In this document: positions 22,973 through 52,434 of the stretch, one piece after another | How the letters are laid out: each line of letters starts with the position of its first letter | Position numbering within the stretch: the first letter of the stretch is position 1 | Source: Labia minor | Taxonomy: Eukaryota; Arthropoda; Insecta; Dermaptera; Spongiphoridae | DNA: 64,000 nt | Reading direction: 5' to 3' | Assembly (NCBI GenBank): GCA_963082975.1 | Contig: OY720350.1 | Span: forward strand, 51,786,734-51,850,733 | Notes under the pieces: generated by a model | Told to the model about the DNA's origin: nothing | Database searches by the model: none | The model's input: only the letters and a program-made list of their open reading frames with translations | Position numbers and translations under genes: made by a program

Positions 22973-24195
22973 CTCTTTGAATCATCTGAGAGTGCCTTTG
23001 ATTTTTTGGATTTCGAAATGAAATCGCGACATTCGGGGCAACCTGAAATAAAACCTACGTACCTAGTAAGGGAGTGCATAGCCTCCATCAAATTGGATGG
23101 AAGGCCCATGCTAATCGAAAAAGCCCTGCGCTCAAAAGGTAGCCAACAATTTGTTCCTGTTCAGGCTAATCCCATTTCGGAACTGTGCTGAATTACCTTC
23201 CCGAATGTCCGTTCATCCAATCCACCTCAAATACACTCTCAGTAATACAAAATGGCACAATTCAGACCTGACATGCAATTCATGCAATCCATCCCTAAAA
23301 TGGCATTTGTTTTATCCACCCGTATTTTATTTATTTATTAATTCTAATCTAATCTATGAATTAGTAGGATGAGAACATGCATGGATGTGTAGGAGGCAAC
23401 CACCTTAAAATTCCTATCAACTATATATCAAAAAATAGCCACCCTCCCAGTATAACACATCGAAACCTACTAATTCTAAAAATACCTGTGTCTCTTCTGC
23501 CTCCTTTATCAATGCTTCTTCTTGAAAGATGTACTCTGAAATTCCCTAATCTCACTAAATTCTATCATATAATTTAATATATTTCTCTATAATCTCCTAA
23601 TGAATATTATCAAAAGCAAAAATTCATTGTAATTTAATTCTACTTTCTATATTATATTAAACTTTACTTTAAATATTATATTTACATTTTCTATTATAAA
23701 GTGCGCCATGCTAAATAAATAACGATTATTACTTACATTTGGAGAGCTGAATTTCAATCATTTCATCGTCATGAAGGATGGAGAAGATAATCAAGAATTC
23801 AAATCAACATTCAGTAGCAGGAACGAAGATTGAAACATGAAATAGAAGAAGAAAAATCACTTATTAGTTTATAATCAATAAATTTAAATTGAATTAAAAA
23901 TAAAATTAATAATAAATACTGACCTCGGAGTTCATAAAGGGTTGATATTTCTCGCAGATTAAACTCGAAGAACAGCTCGTAGACTTGAATTGATGTCCAT
24001 CACTCTCGCCTCGATAAAGAAAAAAATAATTAAGATTAGATATTTATATTATATACGGGAAATAAAAAATAAGATATAAATAAATAAATAATATTAATAT
24101 ATTTTAAAAAGTGTATAGATTTTTAAAAATATTATCTTATTTCTGTAATATTAAAATACTAAAATTATTTTACATCCTATATAGAACGATGATTA
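22973..24195. other. Intergenic DNA, unrecognised short ORFs (copy at 44372-45594)
   Basis: The first 220 bp are less AT-rich and open on both strands (plus-strand frame to 23191 containing LVRECIASIKLDGRPMLIEK), but I do not recognise the product. Between 23735 and 24009 the minus strand has splice-like signals (CCAAATGTAAGT; exon-like 24009-23924 followed by GTCAGT). No complete gene could be assembled. Confidence 0.35.
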
Positions 24196-24488
24196 TGTAA
24201 GCGGGTTGTCCCCTGGTTAAATCACAAATTAAATATAAAATAATTTAGATTTATTTGAATCCAAATTTTTATTACATTTATAAACTCTAAAATAAATGAC
24301 AACTTAAAAGTAATTATTAAAAAAATAAATGTCTCAATTGAGATAGTCACAAGTCTTCTTTCTTCTCGGGCCACACTCTCTTCGTTCCCTTCCTCTCACC
24401 TCAGTGTCCGAGCTCGGTCTGTCTAACCAGCAGCAGGCAAACGCCAGCCACCTTCACCAGATCAAGGGTCATTTTTCCCACTATTACA
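24196..24488 (-). repeat. 3' LTR of Gypsy copy 1
   Basis: On the minus strand it begins TGTAATAGTGGG and ends CCCGCTTACA. An AATAAA lies in the AT-rich 3' half. There is no clear TATA box in the U3-like part. It matches the 5' LTR at 30470-30762. Confidence 0.9.
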
Positions 24489-24491
24489 TCG

Positions 24492-24501
24492 TTCTCCCTT
24501 T
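24492..24501 (-). other. Polypurine tract of Gypsy copy 1
   Basis: The minus strand reads AAAGGGAGAA, three bases from the 3' LTR. This is the expected site for plus-strand DNA priming. Confidence 0.7.
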
Positions 24502-24504
24502 AAG

Positions 24505-24537
24505 AAAGATTGTCCATTAATTTCTTGGACAATCTTT
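24505..24537 (-). other. Perfect 11-bp stem-loop beside the polypurine tract
   Basis: The arms AAAGATTGTCC and GGACAATCTTT surround an 11-base loop, between the third-frame stop and the polypurine tract. It would form in the element RNA. Function is unknown. It recurs at 45904-45936. Confidence 0.6.
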
Positions 24538-24659
24538 GTCATTTATATCAGCGAGAGCGAAGGGACTCCGATTCGACATTAGCGAAACACCCCTCCGTCT
24601 TCGGTATCTCTCTTCTTTCTTCTGTCTTGAGGTTTATGTTAGTTTGAGAGTTCTTTTCC

Positions 24660-25958
24660 TCAGTTAGAATCACCACTATTATTATTACACTGCGTTAAAC
24701 TATCTTCTGTTTCACAGTCACTTGCTACAGCGAGAGGAATGGAATGAGCTGACATTGCTAATTCTGTTTCAGCACGATTGCCTAAAGTATTCCTAACTCT
24801 TAGCCCATAGGGAGATCTATTAACTTGACCGATATTTCTGCCTGGAATCCATTGAGAATCTTCAATGGAGGGACTCGAGCTGTCTTCTACTTCTTCTCTG
24901 ATGGTGCTTTCAATTCCTTGCTCTCCTTCTACTCCTGCAATCTCATTCTCTGAGCATAAATCTTCCCCAACCACCCTTCTAGAACTTCTAAGGAAATAAG
25001 GAGATCTTTCACGGTGAGATGACTCTCCTTCCGGAGTCCACTCTGATTCCGTCAAAATGGACCCATTATTTGAAGGCGAAGAGGTAACTTGAGTTTCATT
25101 ATTATCTATATTTTCATTTTCCTCTCTACTCAGAATCGGATCGTTTATAGCTACTTCTTCTATATTATCCGTTGAACGAGCTTGATTAAAGGAATTATCT
25201 ATATTTGTGTTCATTTCCTTCGAGTGTATCATGTTTGGTTCTTCATAAGGAAAGGTCTCTCTCGTACACTCCCAACATTCAGAATCTATAGGATTTTCTT
25301 CTAAATCATTTAATGTTTCTGTATAAATGCGGATTAAAATCGAATGATGTTTAATTTCTTCTAAAATAATTTCTCTAACTTTTTCCCAAGTTAGTCGATC
25401 TGAACCGCAGCCTATGCGAGGTAATGCTATTTGTTTTATCCGTAGATTTTTAGCCTGGAGTATCATAGATTTGATGCATTTTCTTAGTTGTTCAATTTTC
25501 ACTTTCTCATCTATCGTTTCTTTTAAAATTAGATGAAAGATAATTCTCTCAGGGTGAAACTGAACAAGTGTATCACCTACTTTGGGAGTAGGTTTGATTT
25601 CTAATGGATGACGAGGGTATACTCTTTTAATTTCCTTAGCAATACCACGTGACATTACTAAGTCGGCAGCAATTCCATAACCCAGCGCGAAATTCGTTGG
25701 TGCTTCTATAAGCTTACCTTCCACTTCTTCCAATCCGACGCTGTCTTTTATTTTCGAAGGTAATACGCTCGATTTTAATCGATTAACATGCACGTTCATA
25801 GTTTTATTTGGTCCGATAGCAACTTCATAGACTACCGGAGATTTTACCGAAACGATTACATACGGGCCCTTCCATGGTTTATTAAATTTTTTTGCTTGTT
25901 TTTCACCCGTTGCGGGTGTTAATAAAAATACGGAATCTCCTTCAAAAAATTGACGCAT
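24660..25958 (-). CDS. Gypsy third frame: integrase GPY/F domain plus TARG1-like macro domain
   Basis: The 432-residue frame opens with the C-terminal integrase module (WKGPYVIVSV, GPY at 31-33, ending in VHVNRLK). Residues about 82-215 resemble the OARD1/TARG1 group of macro domains, which bind ADP-ribose and remove it from acidic side chains: ALGYGIAADLVMSRGIAKEI, VGDTLVQF, LILKETI, LPRIGCGSDRLTWEKV and a final IRIYTE. Lys146 and Asp187 sit where the TARG1 catalytic pair is expected (inferred by eye). The rest is Ser-, Asn- and Glu-rich, with two related motifs (EWTPEG with RSPYFLR; QWIPGR with RSPYGLR). It overlaps pol by 17 bases and is offset +1 from it, so pol's integrase is split between frames. 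There is no signal peptide or membrane segment, so it is not an envelope gene. Confidence 0.82.
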   Translation of the reverse strand: MRQFFEGDSVFLLTPATGEKQAKKFNKPWKGPYVIVSVKSPVVYEVAIGPNKTMNVHVNRLKSSVLPSKIKDSVGLEEVEGKLIEAPTNFALGYGIAADLVMSRGIAKEIKRVYPRHPLEIKPTPKVGDTLVQFHPERIIFHLILKETIDEKVKIEQLRKCIKSMILQAKNLRIKQIALPRIGCGSDRLTWEKVREIILEEIKHHSILIRIYTETLNDLEENPIDSECWECTRETFPYEEPNMIHSKEMNTNIDNSFNQARSTDNIEEVAINDPILSREENENIDNNETQVTSSPSNNGSILTESEWTPEGESSHRERSPYFLRSSRRVVGEDLCSENEIAGVEGEQGIESTIREEVEDSSSPSIEDSQWIPGRNIGQVNRSPYGLRVRNTLGNRAETELAMSAHSIPLAVASDCETEDSLTQCNNNSGDSN

Positions 25959-28900
25959 TTTTCTTTTTTTTATTTTTATTTTTATGTGATAGTTTCAGCT
26001 CTTGGCGGGATTTATTTAGAGATAAATAATAAGCTTTTTCCAAACGATTTATTAAATCTTCAATATATTTATCTCTAATGGAATCGGAATAATGATACCG
26101 ATATTCGTTCGCACAAGGTAAGTTTATTTCCCTTCCATATAATAAAAAATTTGGAGAGTAACCTGTGCTTCCATGTGGAGTAGAGCAATAGGCCATCATG
26201 GCATGAGGAAGCCACTGATCCCAATCTCTTCCATCAGGACGTACATAATGAGACATCGTGTCTATTAGTGTTCGATGGAATCTTTCTAATCGCCCATTAG
26301 ATTCCGGGTGATAAGCTGTAGTGTTAATTTTCTTTATACCCAATAGCTTACAAAGGTGAGATAGAAGATTTGACATAAAGTTTTTACCTTTATCACTTAG
26401 CAACTTTTCAGGAGCCCCAAATCTACAAATCACTCTTTCTACCAATGCTCTTGCTATACGCTCCGCTGTTTGGTTAGGGAGAGGAATTGCTTCAGCGTAT
26501 CTGGTAAAATAATCAATACAGGTAAGAATGTATTTATTTCCTCTTTTTGTAGTTGGTAACGGTCCAACAATATCAACTGCTACCATTTGAAATGGTCTAG
26601 AGGTGTCTTCGTGTTCTTGAATGGGTACTTTTAGACCAACCGGAGATTTTCTCAGATTACAACTTCGGCAAGTTTTCACATATTGCTCCACATCTTTTTT
26701 GAGTGTTTTCCAAAAGTATAAACGTTCTATCAGTTTTTGTGTGGCTTCAATACCCCGGTGACCTGCCATAGGATGATCATGATGATTTTTAATAACTTGA
26801 AGAACGTATGATTTAGGTACTATTAATTTAGGTTCATCATCATCTTCTGATTTTAAATATATAATTCCTCTTTCATCCTCTACAAAAGGTAAGTGTTGTT
26901 TTATCAATTGGCAGTCGATATCTTTCAATTGAGCCTGTCTTAATTCCGTAGGATTATTATTTAATTCAATTATTTCAACCATTCCAACCGAACGACTCAA
27001 TGCATCGGCATTTTTATGTAATTTTCCTGCTTTATGCTCAACTTCATAATTAAATTCTGCTAGCTTTAAGGTCCAGCGTGTTAATCTGGATGAAGCATTT
27101 TTTAAGCTTAGCATCCATTTTAATGCTGCATGATCAGTTAATAATTTAAATTTTCTTCCATATAAATAACATCTGAATTGTTGGGTAGCCCATACTACCG
27201 CTAATAGCTCTTGCTCTGTAACCGAATAGTTTTGCTCTGCCTTATTCAAATTTCTACTTGCAAAGGCCACAGGTCTTTCATACCCATTCCTTAGTTGAGA
27301 AAGTACGGCTCCTATCGCTCTACCCGAAGCATCTGTCGCGAGAATAAAGGGATCTTTGAAATCTGGATAAATTAAAACATTATCCTTTATTAATTCAGAC
27401 TTAAGTTTATTAAATGCAACTTCCTGATCATCATTCCATTTAAACGGTTGGTCTTTTTTGGTTAATTGGGTCAATGGTCGGGCTATATGAGCATAGCTAG
27501 GTATAAATCTCCTATACCAACCAGAAAGGCCTAAAAACTGTCTTACCTCTCTGATATTCTTAGGTCGAGAATATAGTTTAATTGCTTCTGTATTTTTGGG
27601 ATGCGGTTTTATACCATCGGCAGAAACAATATGACCCAGATATTCTACTTCGGAGACTGCAAAGTTGCATTTTGATATTTGTAATTTTAAATTTGCTTTT
27701 TGGAGCCTATTTAAAACATTTCGTAATCGAACAAGATGTTCATTCCATGAGTCTGAGAAGATGATAACATCATCTAAGTATACGAAACATTCCTCTCCTT
27801 TTATATGAGCCAACACTCTATCCATCAGCCTTTGAAAAGTCGCCGGTGCTCCTGCTAGGCCGAATGGCATGCGATTGTATTCAAAGTGCCCTTCAGGAGT
27901 AGAAAAAGCGGTCTTCTCCTTATCCCGAGGGTCCACTAATATTTGATGATAACCACTGGCGAGATCTAAGGTAGTAAAAAGGCTTGCCTTACCAAGTGAT
28001 TCTAACGTTTCGGTTATATTAGGTATTGGATAGCTTGCTACTTTCGTTATTTGATTCAATGATCGAAAATCTGTACAAAACCGATATTTTATTTCTCCAT
28101 TTTTCTTTTTAGGTACTAATATCACGGGCGCTGACCAAGGTGAGTCTGAGTCTTGTATAATATTCTTTTCCAGTAATTCCTTAATTTGATTTCTCATCTC
28201 ATCTTTCAACGCATTGGGAACCCGGTATGGTTTTTTACAAATAGGTGGGGAGAAATCAGTTATTATACGGTGCATGACACCCGAAGCACATCCAATATTT
28301 TTGTTACTTTCGTCGTAAATAACCCCTGGATATTCGTGTAATAATGCCTTTAATTGATTTTTATGTTCTTTAGTTAAGTGTTTGATTTTATTTTCTAATA
28401 TAGCCTTGAAGTCACTTGTTTCACATTCATTTTCCCATTTAATTTGATTCACCTCAAATACATCAGTTAATTCTCCAACCGCTATTTCAGTTTTATTATC
28501 TACTCTTAATTTCTTTCCCGTCATATTAATCATTTTAATAGGTGTCATTCCATTGACGATTCTCCCAATAGAATAAGCAATCCGTACACCTCCTCCTATT
28601 TGGGCAGGTTGAAGCAATAGATTTCTTTTTTCTAAATTTTTTGATTTTGAAACTTTACCCCAAATAAATATTTCTGACCAAGGAGGAATTTCCACATTTT
28701 CAAGGCAATGCACTGAATATTCCTTTTTCGTGTCAGTTTCCAAACTAATCACTTGTTGGTTATCTTCTTTAATTTCGTTAAAACGCAATTCTTGAGAAGA
28801 AAAATCTAAAGTGGCTCCTATTTTCTTTAATAGGTCTGCCCCGATCAGGCCTGCTCCGACATTTTTCAGAGGGGAAATAATAAATTGATGTTGCAATGTT

Positions 28901-29103
28901 TTTCCGCACAGTATTACTTTTACCTTTTGAATACCTATTATATTAAGGAGGTCTCCAGTAATACCCCTAGCTACTCCCGACCAGGGATATATCGGAATGC
29001 CGGGTACCGGGTCTCTTAAAATTGATACTTGTGCTCCTGTATCAACTAATAAACGACGATATACATCCCCCACTAAAGCACCCACGCGATTATCATCCCC
29101 CAC
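25942..29103 (-). CDS. pol: Gypsy Pol: protease, reverse transcriptase, RNase H, integrase core, copy 1
   Basis: The 1053-codon frame starts after the gag stop and has no good ATG; the first codon listed is GTG, and the frame is open upstream to the frameshift site at 29181-29187. Domains in order: aspartic protease LLVDTGAQ (DTG 21-23); reverse transcriptase with LDLASGYHQI and YLDD at 442-445; RNase H with ATDASGRAIG (Asp591) and NADALSR; integrase zinc finger (HPMAGHRG, then CRSC near 812-815); and the DDE core with D844, D904 and E940, the last pair 35 residues apart as usual. It ends in a Lys/Asn-rich stretch just before the GPY/F module, which lies in the next frame. Confidence 0.93.
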   Translation of the reverse strand: MGDDNRVGALVGDVYRRLLVDTGAQVSILRDPVPGIPIYPWSGVARGITGDLLNIIGIQKVKVILCGKTLQHQFIISPLKNVGAGLIGADLLKKIGATLDFSSQELRFNEIKEDNQQVISLETDTKKEYSVHCLENVEIPPWSEIFIWGKVSKSKNLEKRNLLLQPAQIGGGVRIAYSIGRIVNGMTPIKMINMTGKKLRVDNKTEIAVGELTDVFEVNQIKWENECETSDFKAILENKIKHLTKEHKNQLKALLHEYPGVIYDESNKNIGCASGVMHRIITDFSPPICKKPYRVPNALKDEMRNQIKELLEKNIIQDSDSPWSAPVILVPKKKNGEIKYRFCTDFRSLNQITKVASYPIPNITETLESLGKASLFTTLDLASGYHQILVDPRDKEKTAFSTPEGHFEYNRMPFGLAGAPATFQRLMDRVLAHIKGEECFVYLDDVIIFSDSWNEHLVRLRNVLNRLQKANLKLQISKCNFAVSEVEYLGHIVSADGIKPHPKNTEAIKLYSRPKNIREVRQFLGLSGWYRRFIPSYAHIARPLTQLTKKDQPFKWNDDQEVAFNKLKSELIKDNVLIYPDFKDPFILATDASGRAIGAVLSQLRNGYERPVAFASRNLNKAEQNYSVTEQELLAVVWATQQFRCYLYGRKFKLLTDHAALKWMLSLKNASSRLTRWTLKLAEFNYEVEHKAGKLHKNADALSRSVGMVEIIELNNNPTELRQAQLKDIDCQLIKQHLPFVEDERGIIYLKSEDDDEPKLIVPKSYVLQVIKNHHDHPMAGHRGIEATQKLIERLYFWKTLKKDVEQYVKTCRSCNLRKSPVGLKVPIQEHEDTSRPFQMVAVDIVGPLPTTKRGNKYILTCIDYFTRYAEAIPLPNQTAERIARALVERVICRFGAPEKLLSDKGKNFMSNLLSHLCKLLGIKKINTTAYHPESNGRLERFHRTLIDTMSHYVRPDGRDWDQWLPHAMMAYCSTPHGSTGYSPNFLLYGREINLPCANEYRYHYSDSIRDKYIEDLINRLEKAYYLSLNKSRQELKLSHKNKNKKKKNASIF

Positions 29104-29174
29104 TTTATTGGTAGTTACTGTTGTAATAATTATGCCCTGATTTTTGGATCGATTAACAGGTCTTTGCTCGATCC

Positions 29175-30056
29175 TTATTCGTTTCCCTTTTCTCTGAAGC
29201 TTTTTCGATTTTCTCCTTTGATCGCTTGTATTCTTGGAGAAGTGCTAGATTCAAAAATTCTCGAACTCGATGTGCGAGGAGATTCCGTAGTGAGATTTGA
29301 ACAATTTCTGGCCAAATGACCCTTTCCTCTGCATTTGAAACATACTATCTCCTTTGATGGTGAAGAAGCACAATGTCTAGCCATGTGACCTTTAATTCCA
29401 CAATTGAAACAACTCTGGTTTTTTGTGTATGTAAAATTATTTGTATATAAATCATCCCCTTGATTTTTACAACCCGATTCCTTTCTCAATTTTTCCATTT
29501 CGAATTCGATTCTTTTAGCTCGTGATAGAGCCTCTTCTTCATCTTCTGGAGGTGATACTCGTAAAGTTTTACCTACTTCACCTTCAAGTCCCTCTAAGAA
29601 AAGTTCTAAAACTGTAAATCCAAATGATTCTCCACTTTCTAATACAGCTTTTATCCTATCATAAAAATCCCCAGCTTGTTCATAAGGTAATTGTTTTAAG
29701 CCCGTTAATTGTTTAATTCGATCTAATTTATTAATTTTATTCCCGAAGCGATTTATAAGTTTAGCTTTTAGTTCAGCATAATTTAATTCACTAGATTGCC
29801 CCTGAACAAATAAAAGAGGTGTTCCTTCTAATTTTAATTTTAATACCACTAGTTTGTCAGCATCACTCCATCTCCCTAGCAGAGATAATTGCTCGAACCT
29901 AGTTATAAATTCATCAAACGATTGTTTACCATCCCAGGTTTTTATTTGATCTAAGAGTGTAAAGTTAGGTTCACGTTCAACTTTGACGGTAATTGCGGTA
30001 GGTCGTTTTGCAAGTTCTGCTTCTAAGATTGCAATTTTTTCTTCTAAATTAGTCAT
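29175..30056 (-). CDS. gag: Gypsy Gag with two CCHC zinc knuckles, copy 1
   Basis: The 293-residue protein starts at the first ATG after the leader. Residues 1-20 look helical and Glu-rich; 35-165 have the FDEFITRFEQL and LEGTPLLFVQ style of Ty3/Gypsy capsid. Two knuckles follow: CFNCGIKGHMARHC (216-229) and CFKCRGKGHLARNC (239-252), which bind element RNA. The end is Ser/Arg-rich. The stop (29175-29177) lies just beyond the GGGAAAC slippery heptamer. Confidence 0.93.
   Translation of the reverse strand: MTNLEEKIAILEAELAKRPTAITVKVEREPNFTLLDQIKTWDGKQSFDEFITRFEQLSLLGRWSDADKLVVLKLKLEGTPLLFVQGQSSELNYAELKAKLINRFGNKINKLDRIKQLTGLKQLPYEQAGDFYDRIKAVLESGESFGFTVLELFLEGLEGEVGKTLRVSPPEDEEEALSRAKRIEFEMEKLRKESGCKNQGDDLYTNNFTYTKNQSCFNCGIKGHMARHCASSPSKEIVCFKCRGKGHLARNCSNLTTESPRTSSSRIFESSTSPRIQAIKGENRKSFREKGNE
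29181..29187 (-). promoter_or_regulatory. -1 ribosomal frameshift heptamer GGGAAAC (gag to pol), copy 1
   Basis: On the minus strand G GGA AAC lies in the gag zero frame, one sense codon before the gag stop. Shifting back one base enters the pol frame, which has no stop from there into protease. The heptamer fits the X XXY YYZ rule. It recurs at 50580-50586. Confidence 0.8.
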
Positions 30057-30361
30057 TTTTAAATAATATTAAACAAAATAAAATATAAAAATACCACTTA
30101 TATATATAGAATATATATAAATATTACACTCTAGGTATATAAATAATTATATTTTACATGAACATTGATTTTTATAAACACACACAAATATTATATTTAT
30201 TTAAAGATATAAATACACATTACTATTATAAATAATATTATATAAATTTATAAATAAAACTTATTTTCTATTTGAAAAAAATTTTAAGTAGATTAACTGA
30301 ATGAATACGCACTTTGAACATACACATTTTAGAAAAAAAACTTTATAAATTTTAAAAATTC

Positions 30362-30400
<39 letters not shown>

Positions 30401-30448
30401 ATGAAGGGTCCCTAATTTATTCTAATTGTAGAATAGTATAGGTAACTC

Positions 30449-30466
30449 ACCTCACACCTGACACCA
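30449..30466 (-). other. Primer binding site of Gypsy copy 1 (tRNA-Leu-like)
   Basis: Three bases after the 5' LTR the minus strand reads TGGTGTCAGGTGTGAGGT. The first ten bases fit the complement of a typical tRNA-Leu 3' end; the remainder differs, so the tRNA assignment is an inference. Confidence 0.55.
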
Positions 30467-30469
30467 AAT

Positions 30470-30762
30470 TGTAAGCGGGTTGTCCCCTGGTTAAATCACA
30501 AATTAAATATAAAATAATTTAGATTTATTTGAATCCAAATTTTTATTACATTTATAAACTCTAAAATAAATGACAACTTAAAAGTAATTATTAAAAAAAT
30601 AAATGTCTCAATTGAGATAGTCACAAGTCTTCTTTCTTCTCGGGCCACACTCTCTTCGTTCCCTTCCTCTCACCTCAGTGTCCGAGCTCGGTCTGTCTAA
30701 CCAGCAGCAGGCAAACGCCAGCCACCTTCACCAGATCAAGGGTCATTTTTCCCACTATTACA
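30470..30762 (-). repeat. 5' LTR of Gypsy copy 1
   Basis: It is the same 293 bp as the 3' LTR with no difference noticed. An AT dinucleotide run at 30364-30398 lies in the leader between it and gag. Confidence 0.9.
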
Positions 30763-31034
30763 ATTATAATAAGTTATAATACGCATTTAATAGACATATA
30801 ATAAAAATATCTTAGAAAACATCAGAAAACTAATTATGATTATATTATTAATTTCACGAAGATTTTATTCTGTTTAATTGATATATTATAGGTAATAGAA
30901 ATATTATTCATTTTTCAAAAGTGTTATAATAATATGAAATTGACAATGAGATTTGAAAGGAACGGTGTGAGCGATAATGAGATTAGAAAGAATATATAGA
31001 ATATTTAAATATTATATTTATTATTATATGAATA

Positions 31035-44371: not shown

Positions 44372-46058
44372 CTCTTTGAATCATCTGAGAGTGCCTTTGA
44401 TTTTTTGGATTTCGAAATGAAATCGCGACATTCGGGGCAACCTGAAATAAAACCTACGTACCTAGTAAGGGAGTGCATAGCCTCCATCAAATTGGATGGA
44501 AGGCCCATGCTAATCGAAAAAGCCCTGCGCTCAAAAGGTAGCCAACAATTTGTTCCTGTTCAGGCTAATCCCATTTCGGAACTGTGCTGAATTACCTTCC
44601 CGAATGTCCGTTCATCCAATCCACCTCAAATACACTCTCAGTAATACAAAATGGCACAATTCAGACCTGACATGCAATTCATGCAATCCATCCCTAAAAT
44701 GGCATTTGTTTTATCCACCCGTATTTTATTTATTTATTAATTCTAATCTAATCTATGAATTAGTAGGATGAGAACATGCATGGATGTGTAGGAGGCAACC
44801 ACCTTAAAATTCCTATCAACTATATATCAAAAAATAGCCACCCTCCCAGTATAACACATCGAAACCTACTAATTCTAAAAATACCTGTGTCTCTTCTGCC
44901 TCCTTTATCAATGCTTCTTCTTGAAAGATGTACTCTGAAATTCCCTAATCTCACTAAATTCTATCATATAATTTAATATATTTCTCTATAATCTCCTAAT
45001 GAATATTATCAAAAGCAAAAATTCATTGTAATTTAATTCTACTTTCTATATTATATTAAACTTTACTTTAAATATTATATTTACATTTTCTATTATAAAG
45101 TGCGCCATGCTAAATAAATAACGATTATTACTTACATTTGGAGAGCTGAATTTCAATCATTTCATCGTCATGAAGGATGGAGAAGATAATCAAGAATTCA
45201 AATCAACATTCAGTAGCAGGAACGAAGATTGAAACATGAAATAGAAGAAGAAAAATCACTTATTAGTTTATAATCAATAAATTTAAATTGAATTAAAAAT
45301 AAAATTAATAATAAATACTGACCTCGGAGTTCATAAAGGGTTGATATTTCTCGCAGATTAAACTCGAAGAACAGCTCGTAGACTTGAATTGATGTCCATC
45401 ACTCTCGCCTCGATAAAGAAAAAAATAATTAAGATTAGATATTTATATTATATACGGGAAATAAAAAATAAGATATAAATAAATAAATAATATTAATATA
45501 TTTTAAAAAGTGTATAGATTTTTAAAAATATTATCTTATTTCTGTAATATTAAAATACTAAAATTATTTTACATCCTATATAGAACGATGATTATGTAAG
45601 CGGGTTGTCCCCTGGTTAAATCACAAATTAAATATAAAATAATTTAGATTTATTTGAATCCAAATTTTTATTACATTTATAAACTCTAAAATAAATGACA
45701 ACTTAAAAGTAATTATTAAAAAAATAAATGTCTCAATTGAGATAGTCACAAGTCTTCTTTCTTCTCGGGCCACACTCTCTTCGTTCCCTTCCTCTCACCT
45801 CAGTGTCCGAGCTCGGTCTGTCTAACCAGCAGCAGGCAAACGCCAGCCACCTTCACCAGATCAAGGGTCATTTTTCCCACTATTACATCGTTCTCCCTTT
45901 AAGAAAGATTGTCCATTAATTTCTTGGACAATCTTTGTCATTTATATCAGCGAGAGCGAAGGGACTCCGATTCGACATTAGCGAAACACCCCTCCGTCTT
46001 CGGTATCTCTCTTCTTTCTTCTGTCTTGAGGTTTATGTTAGTTTGAGAGTTCTTTTCC

Positions 46059-47357
46059 TCAGTTAGAATCACCACTATTATTATTACACTGCGTTAAACT
46101 ATCTTCTGTTTCACAGTCACTTGCTACAGCGAGAGGAATGGAATGAGCTGACATTGCTAATTCTGTTTCAGCACGATTGCCTAAAGTATTCCTAACTCTT
46201 AGCCCATAGGGAGATCTATTAACTTGACCGATATTTCTGCCTGGAATCCATTGAGAATCTTCAATGGAGGGACTCGAGCTGTCTTCTACTTCTTCTCTGA
46301 TGGTGCTTTCAATTCCTTGCTCTCCTTCTACTCCTGCAATCTCATTCTCTGAGCATAAATCTTCCCCAACCACCCTTCTAGAACTTCTAAGGAAATAAGG
46401 AGATCTTTCACGGTGAGATGACTCTCCTTCCGGAGTCCACTCTGATTCCGTCAAAATGGACCCATTATTTGAAGGCGAAGAGGTAACTTGAGTTTCATTA
46501 TTATCTATATTTTCATTTTCCTCTCTACTCAGAATCGGATCGTTTATAGCTACTTCTTCTATATTATCCGTTGAACGAGCTTGATTAAAGGAATTATCTA
46601 TATTTGTGTTCATTTCCTTCGAGTGTATCATGTTTGGTTCTTCATAAGGAAAGGTCTCTCTCGTACACTCCCAACATTCAGAATCTATAGGATTTTCTTC
46701 TAAATCATTTAATGTTTCTGTATAAATGCGGATTAAAATCGAATGATGTTTAATTTCTTCTAAAATAATTTCTCTAACTTTTTCCCAAGTTAGTCGATCT
46801 GAACCGCAGCCTATGCGAGGTAATGCTATTTGTTTTATCCGTAGATTTTTAGCCTGGAGTATCATAGATTTGATGCATTTTCTTAGTTGTTCAATTTTCA
46901 CTTTCTCATCTATCGTTTCTTTTAAAATTAGATGAAAGATAATTCTCTCAGGGTGAAACTGAACAAGTGTATCACCTACTTTGGGAGTAGGTTTGATTTC
47001 TAATGGATGACGAGGGTATACTCTTTTAATTTCCTTAGCAATACCACGTGACATTACTAAGTCGGCAGCAATTCCATAACCCAGCGCGAAATTCGTTGGT
47101 GCTTCTATAAGCTTACCTTCCACTTCTTCCAATCCGACGCTGTCTTTTATTTTCGAAGGTAATACGCTCGATTTTAATCGATTAACATGCACGTTCATAG
47201 TTTTATTTGGTCCGATAGCAACTTCATAGACTACCGGAGATTTTACCGAAACGATTACATACGGGCCCTTCCATGGTTTATTAAATTTTTTTGCTTGTTT
47301 TTCACCCGTTGCGGGTGTTAATAAAAATACGGAATCTCCTTCAAAAAATTGACGCAT
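46059..47357 (-). CDS. Gypsy third frame with GPY/F and macro domains, copy 2
   Basis: Identical 432-residue frame to 24660-25958; the macro domain spans about 46713-47114. Retention of the open frame in both units is not independent evidence of selection, since the units are near-identical. Confidence 0.82.
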   Translation of the reverse strand: MRQFFEGDSVFLLTPATGEKQAKKFNKPWKGPYVIVSVKSPVVYEVAIGPNKTMNVHVNRLKSSVLPSKIKDSVGLEEVEGKLIEAPTNFALGYGIAADLVMSRGIAKEIKRVYPRHPLEIKPTPKVGDTLVQFHPERIIFHLILKETIDEKVKIEQLRKCIKSMILQAKNLRIKQIALPRIGCGSDRLTWEKVREIILEEIKHHSILIRIYTETLNDLEENPIDSECWECTRETFPYEEPNMIHSKEMNTNIDNSFNQARSTDNIEEVAINDPILSREENENIDNNETQVTSSPSNNGSILTESEWTPEGESSHRERSPYFLRSSRRVVGEDLCSENEIAGVEGEQGIESTIREEVEDSSSPSIEDSQWIPGRNIGQVNRSPYGLRVRNTLGNRAETELAMSAHSIPLAVASDCETEDSLTQCNNNSGDSN

Positions 47358-50300
47358 TTTTCTTTTTTTTATTTTTATTTTTATGTGATAGTTTCAGCTC
47401 TTGGCGGGATTTATTTAGAGATAAATAATAAGCTTTTTCCAAACGATTTATTAAATCTTCAATATATTTATCTCTAATGGAATCGGAATAATGATACCGA
47501 TATTCGTTCGCACAAGGTAAGTTTATTTCCCTTCCATATAATAAAAAATTTGGAGAGTAACCTGTGCTTCCATGTGGAGTAGAGCAATAGGCCATCATGG
47601 CATGAGGAAGCCACTGATCCCAATCTCTTCCATCAGGACGTACATAATGAGACATCGTGTCTATTAGTGTTCGATGGAATCTTTCTAATCGCCCATTAGA
47701 TTCCGGGTGATAAGCTGTAGTGTTAATTTTCTTTATACCCAATAGCTTACAAAGGTGAGATAGAAGATTTGACATAAAGTTTTTACCTTTATCACTTAGC
47801 AACTTTTCAGGAGCCCCAAATCTACAAATCACTCTTTCTACCAATGCTCTTGCTATACGCTCCGCTGTTTGGTTAGGGAGAGGAATTGCTTCAGCGTATC
47901 TGGTAAAATAATCAATACAGGTAAGAATGTATTTATTTCCTCTTTTTGTAGTTGGTAACGGTCCAACAATATCAACTGCTACCATTTGAAATGGTCTAGA
48001 GGTGTCTTCGTGTTCTTGAATGGGTACTTTTAGACCAACCGGAGATTTTCTCAGATTACAACTTCGGCAAGTTTTCACATATTGCTCCACATCTTTTTTG
48101 AGTGTTTTCCAAAAGTATAAACGTTCTATCAGTTTTTGTGTGGCTTCAATACCCCGGTGACCTGCCATAGGATGATCATGATGATTTTTAATAACTTGAA
48201 GAACGTATGATTTAGGTACTATTAATTTAGGTTCATCATCATCTTCTGATTTTAAATATATAATTCCTCTTTCATCCTCTACAAAAGGTAAGTGTTGTTT
48301 TATCAATTGGCAGTCGATATCTTTCAATTGAGCCTGTCTTAATTCCGTAGGATTATTATTTAATTCAATTATTTCAACCATTCCAACCGAACGACTCAAT
48401 GCATCGGCATTTTTATGTAATTTTCCTGCTTTATGCTCAACTTCATAATTAAATTCTGCTAGCTTTAAGGTCCAGCGTGTTAATCTGGATGAAGCATTTT
48501 TTAAGCTTAGCATCCATTTTAATGCTGCATGATCAGTTAATAATTTAAATTTTCTTCCATATAAATAACATCTGAATTGTTGGGTAGCCCATACTACCGC
48601 TAATAGCTCTTGCTCTGTAACCGAATAGTTTTGCTCTGCCTTATTCAAATTTCTACTTGCAAAGGCCACAGGTCTTTCATACCCATTCCTTAGTTGAGAA
48701 AGTACGGCTCCTATCGCTCTACCCGAAGCATCTGTCGCGAGAATAAAGGGATCTTTGAAATCTGGATAAATTAAAACATTATCCTTTATTAATTCAGACT
48801 TAAGTTTATTAAATGCAACTTCCTGATCATCATTCCATTTAAACGGTTGGTCTTTTTTGGTTAATTGGGTCAATGGTCGGGCTATATGAGCATAGCTAGG
48901 TATAAATCTCCTATACCAACCAGAAAGGCCTAAAAACTGTCTTACCTCTCTGATATTCTTAGGTCGAGAATATAGTTTAATTGCTTCTGTATTTTTGGGA
49001 TGCGGTTTTATACCATCGGCAGAAACAATATGACCCAGATATTCTACTTCGGAGACTGCAAAGTTGCATTTTGATATTTGTAATTTTAAATTTGCTTTTT
49101 GGAGCCTATTTAAAACATTTCGTAATCGAACAAGATGTTCATTCCATGAGTCTGAGAAGATGATAACATCATCTAAGTATACGAAACATTCCTCTCCTTT
49201 TATATGAGCCAACACTCTATCCATCAGCCTTTGAAAAGTCGCCGGTGCTCCTGCTAGGCCGAATGGCATGCGATTGTATTCAAAGTGCCCTTCAGGAGTA
49301 GAAAAAGCGGTCTTCTCCTTATCCCGAGGGTCCACTAATATTTGATGATAACCACTGGCGAGATCTAAGGTAGTAAAAAGGCTTGCCTTACCAAGTGATT
49401 CTAACGTTTCGGTTATATTAGGTATTGGATAGCTTGCTACTTTCGTTATTTGATTCAATGATCGAAAATCTGTACAAAACCGATATTTTATTTCTCCATT
49501 TTTCTTTTTAGGTACTAATATCACGGGCGCTGACCAAGGTGAGTCTGAGTCTTGTATAATATTCTTTTCCAGTAATTCCTTAATTTGATTTCTCATCTCA
49601 TCTTTCAACGCATTGGGAACCCGGTATGGTTTTTTACAAATAGGTGGGGAGAAATCAGTTATTATACGGTGCATGACACCCGAAGCACATCCAATATTTT
49701 TGTTACTTTCGTCGTAAATAACCCCTGGATATTCGTGTAATAATGCCTTTAATTGATTTTTATGTTCTTTAGTTAAGTGTTTGATTTTATTTTCTAATAT
49801 AGCCTTGAAGTCACTTGTTTCACATTCATTTTCCCATTTAATTTGATTCACCTCAAATACATCAGTTAATTCTCCAACCGCTATTTCAGTTTTATTATCT
49901 ACTCTTAATTTCTTTCCCGTCATATTAATCATTTTAATAGGTGTCATTCCATTGACGATTCTCCCAATAGAATAAGCAATCCGTACACCTCCTCCTATTT
50001 GGGCAGGTTGAAGCAATAGATTTCTTTTTTCTAAATTTTTTGATTTTGAAACTTTACCCCAAATAAATATTTCTGACCAAGGAGGAATTTCCACATTTTC
50101 AAGGCAATGCACTGAATATTCCTTTTTCGTGTCAGTTTCCAAACTAATCACTTGTTGGTTATCTTCTTTAATTTCGTTAAAACGCAATTCTTGAGAAGAA
50201 AAATCTAAAGTGGCTCCTATTTTCTTTAATAGGTCTGCCCCGATCAGGCCTGCTCCGACATTTTTCAGAGGGGAAATAATAAATTGATGTTGCAATGTTT

Positions 50301-50502
50301 TTCCGCACAGTATTACTTTTACCTTTTGAATACCTATTATATTAAGGAGGTCTCCAGTAATACCCCTAGCTACTCCCGACCAGGGATATATCGGAATGCC
50401 GGGTACCGGGTCTCTTAAAATTGATACTTGTGCTCCTGTATCAACTAATAAACGACGATATACATCCCCCACTAAAGCACCCACGCGATTATCATCCCCC
50501 AC
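47341..50502 (-). CDS. pol: Gypsy Pol, copy 2
   Basis: Identical to 25942-29103, with the same protease, RT (YLDD), RNase H and integrase D-D-35-E motifs and the same 17-base overlap with the offset third frame. Confidence 0.93.
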   Translation of the reverse strand: MGDDNRVGALVGDVYRRLLVDTGAQVSILRDPVPGIPIYPWSGVARGITGDLLNIIGIQKVKVILCGKTLQHQFIISPLKNVGAGLIGADLLKKIGATLDFSSQELRFNEIKEDNQQVISLETDTKKEYSVHCLENVEIPPWSEIFIWGKVSKSKNLEKRNLLLQPAQIGGGVRIAYSIGRIVNGMTPIKMINMTGKKLRVDNKTEIAVGELTDVFEVNQIKWENECETSDFKAILENKIKHLTKEHKNQLKALLHEYPGVIYDESNKNIGCASGVMHRIITDFSPPICKKPYRVPNALKDEMRNQIKELLEKNIIQDSDSPWSAPVILVPKKKNGEIKYRFCTDFRSLNQITKVASYPIPNITETLESLGKASLFTTLDLASGYHQILVDPRDKEKTAFSTPEGHFEYNRMPFGLAGAPATFQRLMDRVLAHIKGEECFVYLDDVIIFSDSWNEHLVRLRNVLNRLQKANLKLQISKCNFAVSEVEYLGHIVSADGIKPHPKNTEAIKLYSRPKNIREVRQFLGLSGWYRRFIPSYAHIARPLTQLTKKDQPFKWNDDQEVAFNKLKSELIKDNVLIYPDFKDPFILATDASGRAIGAVLSQLRNGYERPVAFASRNLNKAEQNYSVTEQELLAVVWATQQFRCYLYGRKFKLLTDHAALKWMLSLKNASSRLTRWTLKLAEFNYEVEHKAGKLHKNADALSRSVGMVEIIELNNNPTELRQAQLKDIDCQLIKQHLPFVEDERGIIYLKSEDDDEPKLIVPKSYVLQVIKNHHDHPMAGHRGIEATQKLIERLYFWKTLKKDVEQYVKTCRSCNLRKSPVGLKVPIQEHEDTSRPFQMVAVDIVGPLPTTKRGNKYILTCIDYFTRYAEAIPLPNQTAERIARALVERVICRFGAPEKLLSDKGKNFMSNLLSHLCKLLGIKKINTTAYHPESNGRLERFHRTLIDTMSHYVRPDGRDWDQWLPHAMMAYCSTPHGSTGYSPNFLLYGREINLPCANEYRYHYSDSIRDKYIEDLINRLEKAYYLSLNKSRQELKLSHKNKNKKKKNASIF

Positions 50503-50573
50503 TTTATTGGTAGTTACTGTTGTAATAATTATGCCCTGATTTTTGGATCGATTAACAGGTCTTTGCTCGATCC

Positions 50574-51455
50574 TTATTCGTTTCCCTTTTCTCTGAAGCT
50601 TTTTCGATTTTCTCCTTTGATCGCTTGTATTCTTGGAGAAGTGCTAGATTCAAAAATTCTCGAACTCGATGTGCGAGGAGATTCCGTAGTGAGATTTGAA
50701 CAATTTCTGGCCAAATGACCCTTTCCTCTGCATTTGAAACATACTATCTCCTTTGATGGTGAAGAAGCACAATGTCTAGCCATGTGACCTTTAATTCCAC
50801 AATTGAAACAACTCTGGTTTTTTGTGTATGTAAAATTATTTGTATATAAATCATCCCCTTGATTTTTACAACCCGATTCCTTTCTCAATTTTTCCATTTC
50901 GAATTCGATTCTTTTAGCTCGTGATAGAGCCTCTTCTTCATCTTCTGGAGGTGATACTCGTAAAGTTTTACCTACTTCACCTTCAAGTCCCTCTAAGAAA
51001 AGTTCTAAAACTGTAAATCCAAATGATTCTCCACTTTCTAATACAGCTTTTATCCTATCATAAAAATCCCCAGCTTGTTCATAAGGTAATTGTTTTAAGC
51101 CCGTTAATTGTTTAATTCGATCTAATTTATTAATTTTATTCCCGAAGCGATTTATAAGTTTAGCTTTTAGTTCAGCATAATTTAATTCACTAGATTGCCC
51201 CTGAACAAATAAAAGAGGTGTTCCTTCTAATTTTAATTTTAATACCACTAGTTTGTCAGCATCACTCCATCTCCCTAGCAGAGATAATTGCTCGAACCTA
51301 GTTATAAATTCATCAAACGATTGTTTACCATCCCAGGTTTTTATTTGATCTAAGAGTGTAAAGTTAGGTTCACGTTCAACTTTGACGGTAATTGCGGTAG
51401 GTCGTTTTGCAAGTTCTGCTTCTAAGATTGCAATTTTTTCTTCTAAATTAGTCAT
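50574..51455 (-). CDS. gag: Gypsy Gag, copy 2
   Basis: Identical to 29175-30056, with two CCHC knuckles. The GGGAAAC heptamer is at 50580-50586. Confidence 0.93.
   Translation of the reverse strand: MTNLEEKIAILEAELAKRPTAITVKVEREPNFTLLDQIKTWDGKQSFDEFITRFEQLSLLGRWSDADKLVVLKLKLEGTPLLFVQGQSSELNYAELKAKLINRFGNKINKLDRIKQLTGLKQLPYEQAGDFYDRIKAVLESGESFGFTVLELFLEGLEGEVGKTLRVSPPEDEEEALSRAKRIEFEMEKLRKESGCKNQGDDLYTNNFTYTKNQSCFNCGIKGHMARHCASSPSKEIVCFKCRGKGHLARNCSNLTTESPRTSSSRIFESSTSPRIQAIKGENRKSFREKGNE
50580..50586 (-). promoter_or_regulatory. -1 frameshift heptamer GGGAAAC, copy 2
   Basis: Same position relative to gag and pol as at 29181-29187. Confidence 0.8.
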
Positions 51456-51761
51456 TTTTAAATAATATTAAACAAAATAAAATATAAAAATACCACTTAT
51501 ATATATAGAATATATATAAATATTACACTCTAGGTATATAAATAATTATATTTTACATGAACATTGATTTTTATAAACACACACAAATATTATATTTATT
51601 TAAAGATATAAATACACATTACTATTATAAATAATATTATATAAATTTATAAATAAAACTTATTTTCTATTTGAAAAAAATTTTAAGTAGATTAACTGAA
51701 TGAATACGCACTTTGAACATACACATTTTAGAAAAAAAACTTTATAAATTTTAAAAATTCT

Positions 51762-51800
<39 letters not shown>

Positions 51801-52434
51801 ATGAAGGGTCCCTAATTTATTCTAATTGTAGAATAGTATAGGTAACTCACCTCACACCTGACACCAAATTGTAAGCGGGTTGTCCCCTGGTTAAATCACA
51901 AATTAAATATAAAATAATTTAGATTTATTTGAATCCAAATTTTTATTACATTTATAAACTCTAAAATAAATGACAACTTAAAAGTAATTATTAAAAAAAT
52001 AAATGTCTCAATTGAGATAGTCACAAGTCTTCTTTCTTCTCGGGCCACACTCTCTTCGTTCCCTTCCTCTCACCTCAGTGTCCGAGCTCGGTCTGTCTAA
52101 CCAGCAGCAGGCAAACGCCAGCCACCTTCACCAGATCAAGGGTCATTTTTCCCACTATTACAATTATAATAAGTTATAATACGCATTTAATAGACATATA
52201 ATAAAAATATCTTAGAAAACATCAGAAAACTAATTATGATTATATTATTAATTTCACGAAGATTTTATTCTGTTTAATTGATATATTATAGGTAATAGAA
52301 ATATTATTCATTTTTCAAAAGTGTTATAATAATATGAAATTGACAATGAGATTTGAAAGGAACGGTGTGAGCGATAATGAGATTAGAAAGAATATATAGA
52401 ATATTTAAATATTATATTTATTATTATATGAATA

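Follow-up and report, generated by a model that had tools for sequence, protein, structure and literature searches.

The 64,000-nucleotide stretch of DNA analyzed here (the window) lies on chromosome 6 of Labia minor and carries a Ty3/Gypsy element on its minus strand, a copy of what we call family A (Table 1). The copy shows the features that define Ty3/Gypsy elements (Metaviridae): gag CCHC knuckles, protease, reverse transcriptase (RT), RNase H and integrase in that order, a GPY/F module, identical long terminal repeats (LTRs) with TG...CA ends, and a short target-site duplication. The initial annotation of this DNA, which had called the carrier a Gypsy element, was therefore correct on this point. 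A frame break lies upstream of the GPY/F module, between the 1100-aa and 444-aa frames. The corresponding region is a single frame of 1527 aa in 17 of the 31 family A copies, of 1526 aa in one and of 1801 aa in another; with 19 of 31 copies in one open frame of at least 1526 aa, a programmed frameshift before the module is ruled out. The window copy has no env, as the pol frame ends at 24660 and the LTR at 24488 with no room between them, and a profile scan of this copy (E up to 1) gave no chromodomain match at the C terminus of the integrase.

Table 1. Features of the element in the window (positions in the window; -, minus strand)
Feature	Position	Strand	Remarks
Ty3/Gypsy element, family A copy, 6567 bp	24196..30762	-	two 293-bp direct repeats, TG...CA ends, ATTA flanks
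5' LTR	30470..30762	-	100% identity to 24196-24488
3' LTR	24196..24488	-	293-bp repeat, partner 6274 bp away
Target-site duplication ATTA	24192..24195 and 30763..30766	.	flanks both element ends
Putative tRNA primer-binding site	30450..30466	-	three bases past LTR; read from sequence
gag frame, 297 aa, two CCHC zinc knuckles	29175..30068	-	zf-CCHC E 1.4e-9, two stretches
pol frame, 1100 aa: protease, RT, RNase H, integrase zinc finger and core	25942..29244	-	
Aspartic protease	28807..29073	-	RVP E 4.6e-5
Reverse transcriptase	27625..28110	-	RVT_1 E 4.7e-35
RNase H	27052..27438	-	RT_RNaseH E 7e-41; RT_RNaseH_2 E 1.5e-36
Integrase H2C2 zinc finger and rve core	26305..26820	-	Integrase_H2C2 E 2.3e-20; rve E 3.9e-15
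444-aa stop-to-stop frame (GPY/F module and macro domain)	24660-25994	-	432 aa counted from first Met
Integrase C-terminal GPY/F-type module	25773..25868	-	Integrase_p58_C E 1.3e-8; residues 43-74 of 444-aa frame
TARG1-type macro domain	25320..25730	-	residues 89-225 of 444-aa frame
Lys158 of 444-aa frame (Lys146 of 432-aa frame)	25521..25523	-	corresponds to TARG1 catalytic K84
Asp199 of 444-aa frame (Asp187 of 432-aa frame)	25398..25400	-	Asp of TARG1 GCGLDR loop
Pol C-terminal tail past macro domain	24663..25319	-	no Pfam match; less constrained than macro domain
Second element copy, same 444-aa frame length	45595..52162	-	within 21.4-kb tandem duplication

In frame with the GPY/F module, residues 112-210 of the 444-aa frame match PF01661 Macro (E 1.1e-8; 35.5 bits against a cut-off of 22), and residues 85-225 match human TARG1 (OARD1, C6orf130; best E 7.2e-14). 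The TARG1-type macro domain recognized earlier from the sequence is thus present, and the motifs quoted for it are found in this frame. PF01661 scores above the same cut-off were obtained for family B (28.5 bits) and for the protein P0001 (31.6 bits). An ungapped alignment pairs Lys158 with TARG1 K84 and Asp199 with the Asp in the GCGLDR loop, which we take to be D125, in agreement with the catalytic pair assigned in the initial annotation. Both residues are found in 64 of 64 family A and B copies counted; the count covers 64 of 65 copies, L043 being excluded for a stop inside the macro domain, and a further broken B copy, L126, in which a deletion removes the Asp loop, stands outside it. Each residue is present in 33 of 33 rows of the alignment used for modeling (A2), and both are also kept in the rows for P0001, family C and lineages D and E, at macro domain identities between lineages of only 21.5 to 47%. 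The PR(I/L)GCG loop preceding the Asp, PRIGCG in TARG1, is retained in A, B and P0001, altered in D (TRLGCG) and E (PRLGCR), and lost in C. Family A carries GYGIA where TARG1 (AHCIS) and family B carry AHC(I/V)S, so binding in family A may differ from that of TARG1.

The AF2 model of the macro domain, predicted from the 33-row alignment with a pLDDT of 83.1, was used in place of an earlier, weak one from 11 rows (pLDDT 57.9). When this predicted model was compared with solved structures, macro domains took the top ranks, with TARG1 first and DarG next; identity in this comparison was 26-30% for TARG1 and 8-12% for macro domains of the alphavirus type. The element domain is thus more similar to TARG1 than to the macro domains found in alphaviruses and their relatives among animal RNA viruses. 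Chance similarity is ruled out by the Pfam Macro and TARG1 matches together with the structure ranking of the predicted model. The 444-aa frame had no significant match among 391 candidates in a protein database search whose length range excluded full-length Pol, and no match was found in the viral contigs searched.

The same fusion recurs in the genome and beyond, in families A, B and C, in lineages D and E, and in P0001. A genome scan with Pfam Macro gave 92 matches, comprising 31 in family A, 57 in family B and four in three host-gene loci (one that we read as macroH2A-like, the others MACROD-like and GDAP2-like), with no listed match in family C. Human TARG1 as a query gave 121 matches (E up to 0.01), adding family C, the single lineages D and E, and the host TARG1 gene (C2:49803561-49804023; two exons, 52.5% identity to human TARG1 and 34% to family A). 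Frames in family C are about 1490 aa long; the family numbers about 23 copies as read off the table for the TARG1 query, and six of them were read. In family B, 34 of the 57 copies were fetched and the other 23 were assigned by score and coordinates. Human TARG1 shares about 32% identity with family A and 23-38% across the element lineages; it is a cellular ADP-ribosylhydrolase, whereas the element domain is part of a retroelement Pol.

Integrase cores were collected with the window copy as the query, and 150 of 1549 candidates were scored. Among matches with at least 58% identity, 108 of 111 are followed by a macro match on the same strand, no more than 2.5 kb downstream (the exceptions lie at C4:41011889, C2:51600279 and C5:37699528), whereas none of the 39 matches at 46-51% identity is. 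The macro matches are those of the TARG1 query, and this query would miss a macro domain that had diverged very far beside one of the 39. As far as the scored candidates and this sensitivity show, the macro domain therefore marks one Gypsy clade and is found near none of the more distant families. The idea that an element simply struck the host TARG1 gene draws on the similarity to TARG1 only and is next to impossible, refuted by 108 recurrences behind an integrase and with the host gene located elsewhere.

The initial annotation had placed the domain where env occurs in other elements, and this part does not stand: it is the C-terminal part of Pol. In family B, the macro domain again lies directly behind a GPY/F-type module, and one copy, L035, has in addition a Baculo_F match (E 2.4e-10) downstream of the macro domain, seen in this one copy. 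Because L035 combines the macro domain with a match to a Baculo_F-type Env, the domain is a Pol module and no substitute for env; replacement of env by the macro domain is thereby ruled out. The comparison with errantivirus-like elements (Gypsy elements with env) accordingly differs between the window copy, which has no env, and L035. In another family B copy, the LTR pair is identical across 1036 bp and a 428-aa frame lies between Pol and the LTR. By eye, the Baculo_F stretch of L035, into which its Pol frame runs on (914 aa in the fetched stretch), also opens that 428-aa frame.

P0001 (1452 aa), the sole significant match among 299 candidates, combines RT, RNase H, integrase, a GPY/F-type module and Macro. 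Its macro domain is 47% identical to that of B, 42% to that of A and 38% to human TARG1, and its RT is 79% identical to that of B and 73% to that of A. P0001 is probably not a Labia copy, because a copy with 38% identity to TARG1 should outrank family B in the TARG1 genome query. No chromodomain was matched in the profile scans of family B or P0001. A basic GRPKK/GRPPK stretch followed by WNF, which resembles an AT-hook, ends both family B (the tail of L046) and P0001; GRPKK was found in 29 of 33 B copies read, and family A has no GRPKK/GRPPK stretch.

The insertions are recent, as the LTR pairs are mostly identical. In family A, pairs were sought for 20 of the 31 copies and compared for 19 (one over 189 bp and one over 287 bp); 16 are identical and three have one mismatch, and flanking repeats of 4-5 bp match at 18 of 19 other copies compared. 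In family B, 10 pairs were sought and nine compared (397-794 bp), of which eight are identical and one has two mismatches. Variant counts in 23 of 31 A copies and in 31 of the 34 fetched B copies gave N/S ratios for the macro domain of 0.15 in A (S 10, N 5; p 4e-4) and 0.21 in B (S 24, N 16; p 1.5e-6), p values that are rough since the copies are not independent. The ratio for the integrase part is 0.19 in both families; it is 0.23 (A) and 0.32 (B) for the stretch between the integrase part and the macro domain, and 0.37 (A) and 0.48 (B) for the C-terminal tail, so that the tails are constrained too, though less than the macro domain. Judged from these counts, the macro domain is under purifying selection in families A and B, like the integrase part.

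Family C departs from this pattern. It keeps the Lys and Asp and carries SKEDLVTD in place of PRIGCGLD in five of the six copies read (L118, L119, L121, L124 and L125); the sixth has a frame break ahead of the loop. No constraint on the macro domain was detectable in the five copies left when the frame-shifted one was set aside (S 4, N 10, p 0.40), and yet the domain stays open in many copies. By sequence, not all members of the clade retain a normal active site, and the loop change in C is possibly a change of function.

Trees were built without five near-duplicate or short proteins of 29. When C, D and E are left out, a branch with support 100/99 separates the seven element rows from the rest. 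In the wider tree, which also omits the B row L035 used in the first, A, B, D, E and P0001 group together (100/98), and family C sits with TARG1 of human and Labia (97/92); its branch is very long, and the bootstrap of this tree had not settled. A further split sets element and animal domains apart from the short database proteins (98/95; unrooted), one of which is named Ruminococcus and one called hypothetical. This raises the possibility of two captures, one of TARG1 shared by A, B, D, E and P0001 and a separate one from animal TARG1 in C, a reading that also fits the absence from C of the shared QYHPxR stretch. We regard two captures as a minority possibility, given the long branch of C and the unsettled bootstrap. 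A single clade of all element macro domains is not rejected by the AU test (p 0.33), and among the four RTs compared that of C is the most divergent (64-66% identity, against 70-79% among A, B and P0001), as one early capture predicts. One early capture is the simpler reading of the origin; two captures can hold with either of the functions discussed below.

What does the domain do? We infer, with somewhat better than even confidence, that a Ty3/Gypsy clade captured a TARG1-type ADP-ribosylhydrolase and kept it in Pol behind the GPY/F module as an eraser that aids cDNA completion or integration. The domain would be made as part of Gag-Pol and would move into the nucleus together with integrase, where the complex of integrase and new cDNA would present substrates. 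It would take ADP-ribose off element proteins (integrase, Gag), off newly made cDNA at its ends or where it is single-stranded, or off chromatin where integration takes place; neither cDNA completion nor integration would then be blocked by ADP-ribosylation from the host. Of the functions put forward in the initial annotation, ADP-ribose removal is likely for the family A and B domains, given the kept Lys and Asp and the purifying selection; countering PARP and acting at the integration site are proposals, as are substrate, packaging and benefit to the element. According to PMC8501950, TARG1 takes ADP-ribose off thymidine in DNA, and its K84A variant cannot rescue bacteria from DarT. A title in the reference list of PMC11088682 states that SIRT6 represses LINE1 by ribosylating KAP1, and hence there is a mammalian precedent for host ADP-ribosylation acting against retroelements.

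Second to an eraser travelling with integrase we would place a reader of chromatin, which we consider unlikely: the macro domain, without erasing anything, would tether integrase to ADP-ribosylated chromatin or DNA breaks and so set the integration site. In A, B and P0001, the domain sits directly behind the GPY/F module, where chromoviruses have their chromodomain. Readers among macro domains include those of macroH2A1.1 and ALC1 (PMC11088682). The catalytic Lys and Asp, however, survive deep divergence although pure binding should not need them, and the nearest relatives by fold and sequence, TARG1 and DarG, are hydrolases. Far less probable is a passenger, captured once in ancient times into a tolerant C-terminal extension of Pol and open by chance and short age; the young element copies and family C, without the PRIGCG loop or measurable constraint, would suit it, but in A and B the macro domain is as constrained as the integrase part, and Lys and Asp are kept across lineages whose RTs have diverged by 21-36%.

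Returning to an eraser carried in Pol, an extension that we consider possible but less likely than not is a scenario in which insects defend themselves against mobile elements by ADP-ribosylating DNA, RNA or integrase, the Gypsy clade has escaped through a TARG1 eraser fused to its integrase, and C, its catalytic loop lost, has switched from eraser to ADP-ribose reader and target choice. An eraser of the TARG1 type fused to integrase across this clade, under constraint in two families and recently inserted, would link ADP-ribosylation with how insects control their mobile elements, and the fusion suggests that ADP-ribose tags matter in the conflict of insects with mobile DNA. Families A, B and the loop-changed C offer natural variants for comparing eraser and reader.

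Among known systems, macro domains in animal RNA viruses serve counter-defence. Chromoviruses are Gypsy elements with a chromodomain after the GPY/F module; they resemble the present elements in having an extra domain right behind that module and differ in its being a chromodomain rather than a macro domain. Fish epsilon-like endogenous retroviruses, as described in a review (PMC4977317, citing Basta et al. 2009), are LTR elements that likewise carry an added macro domain but differ as vertebrate retroviruses with additional ORFs, a likeness drawn from the review's description. Gypsy elements of orchids carry an AlkB-type m6A demethylase domain with demethylase activity in vitro, according to PMC9289625; theirs too is a captured enzyme erasing a modification, with a plant host, an additional ORF and other chemistry. 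No description of a macro domain in a Gypsy element was found in the literature searched, the scope of which left aside most subscription papers and Repbase.

Both units of a 21.4-kb tandem duplication in the window (13205-34604 and 34604-57040; identity 99.85-99.97%) contain the element, and the duplication is either recent or an assembly artefact. The stretch TGGTGTCAGGTGTG at the putative primer-binding site is nearly the same in families A (30450-30466) and B (L070, about 1193-1209), where it likewise follows an LTR, and its primer may be tRNA-Leu. Labia minor has seven chromosomes according to Table 1 of PMC11829193, and of five contig ends inspected one (C10) carried the TTCGG telomere motif, at a site that agrees with that paper.
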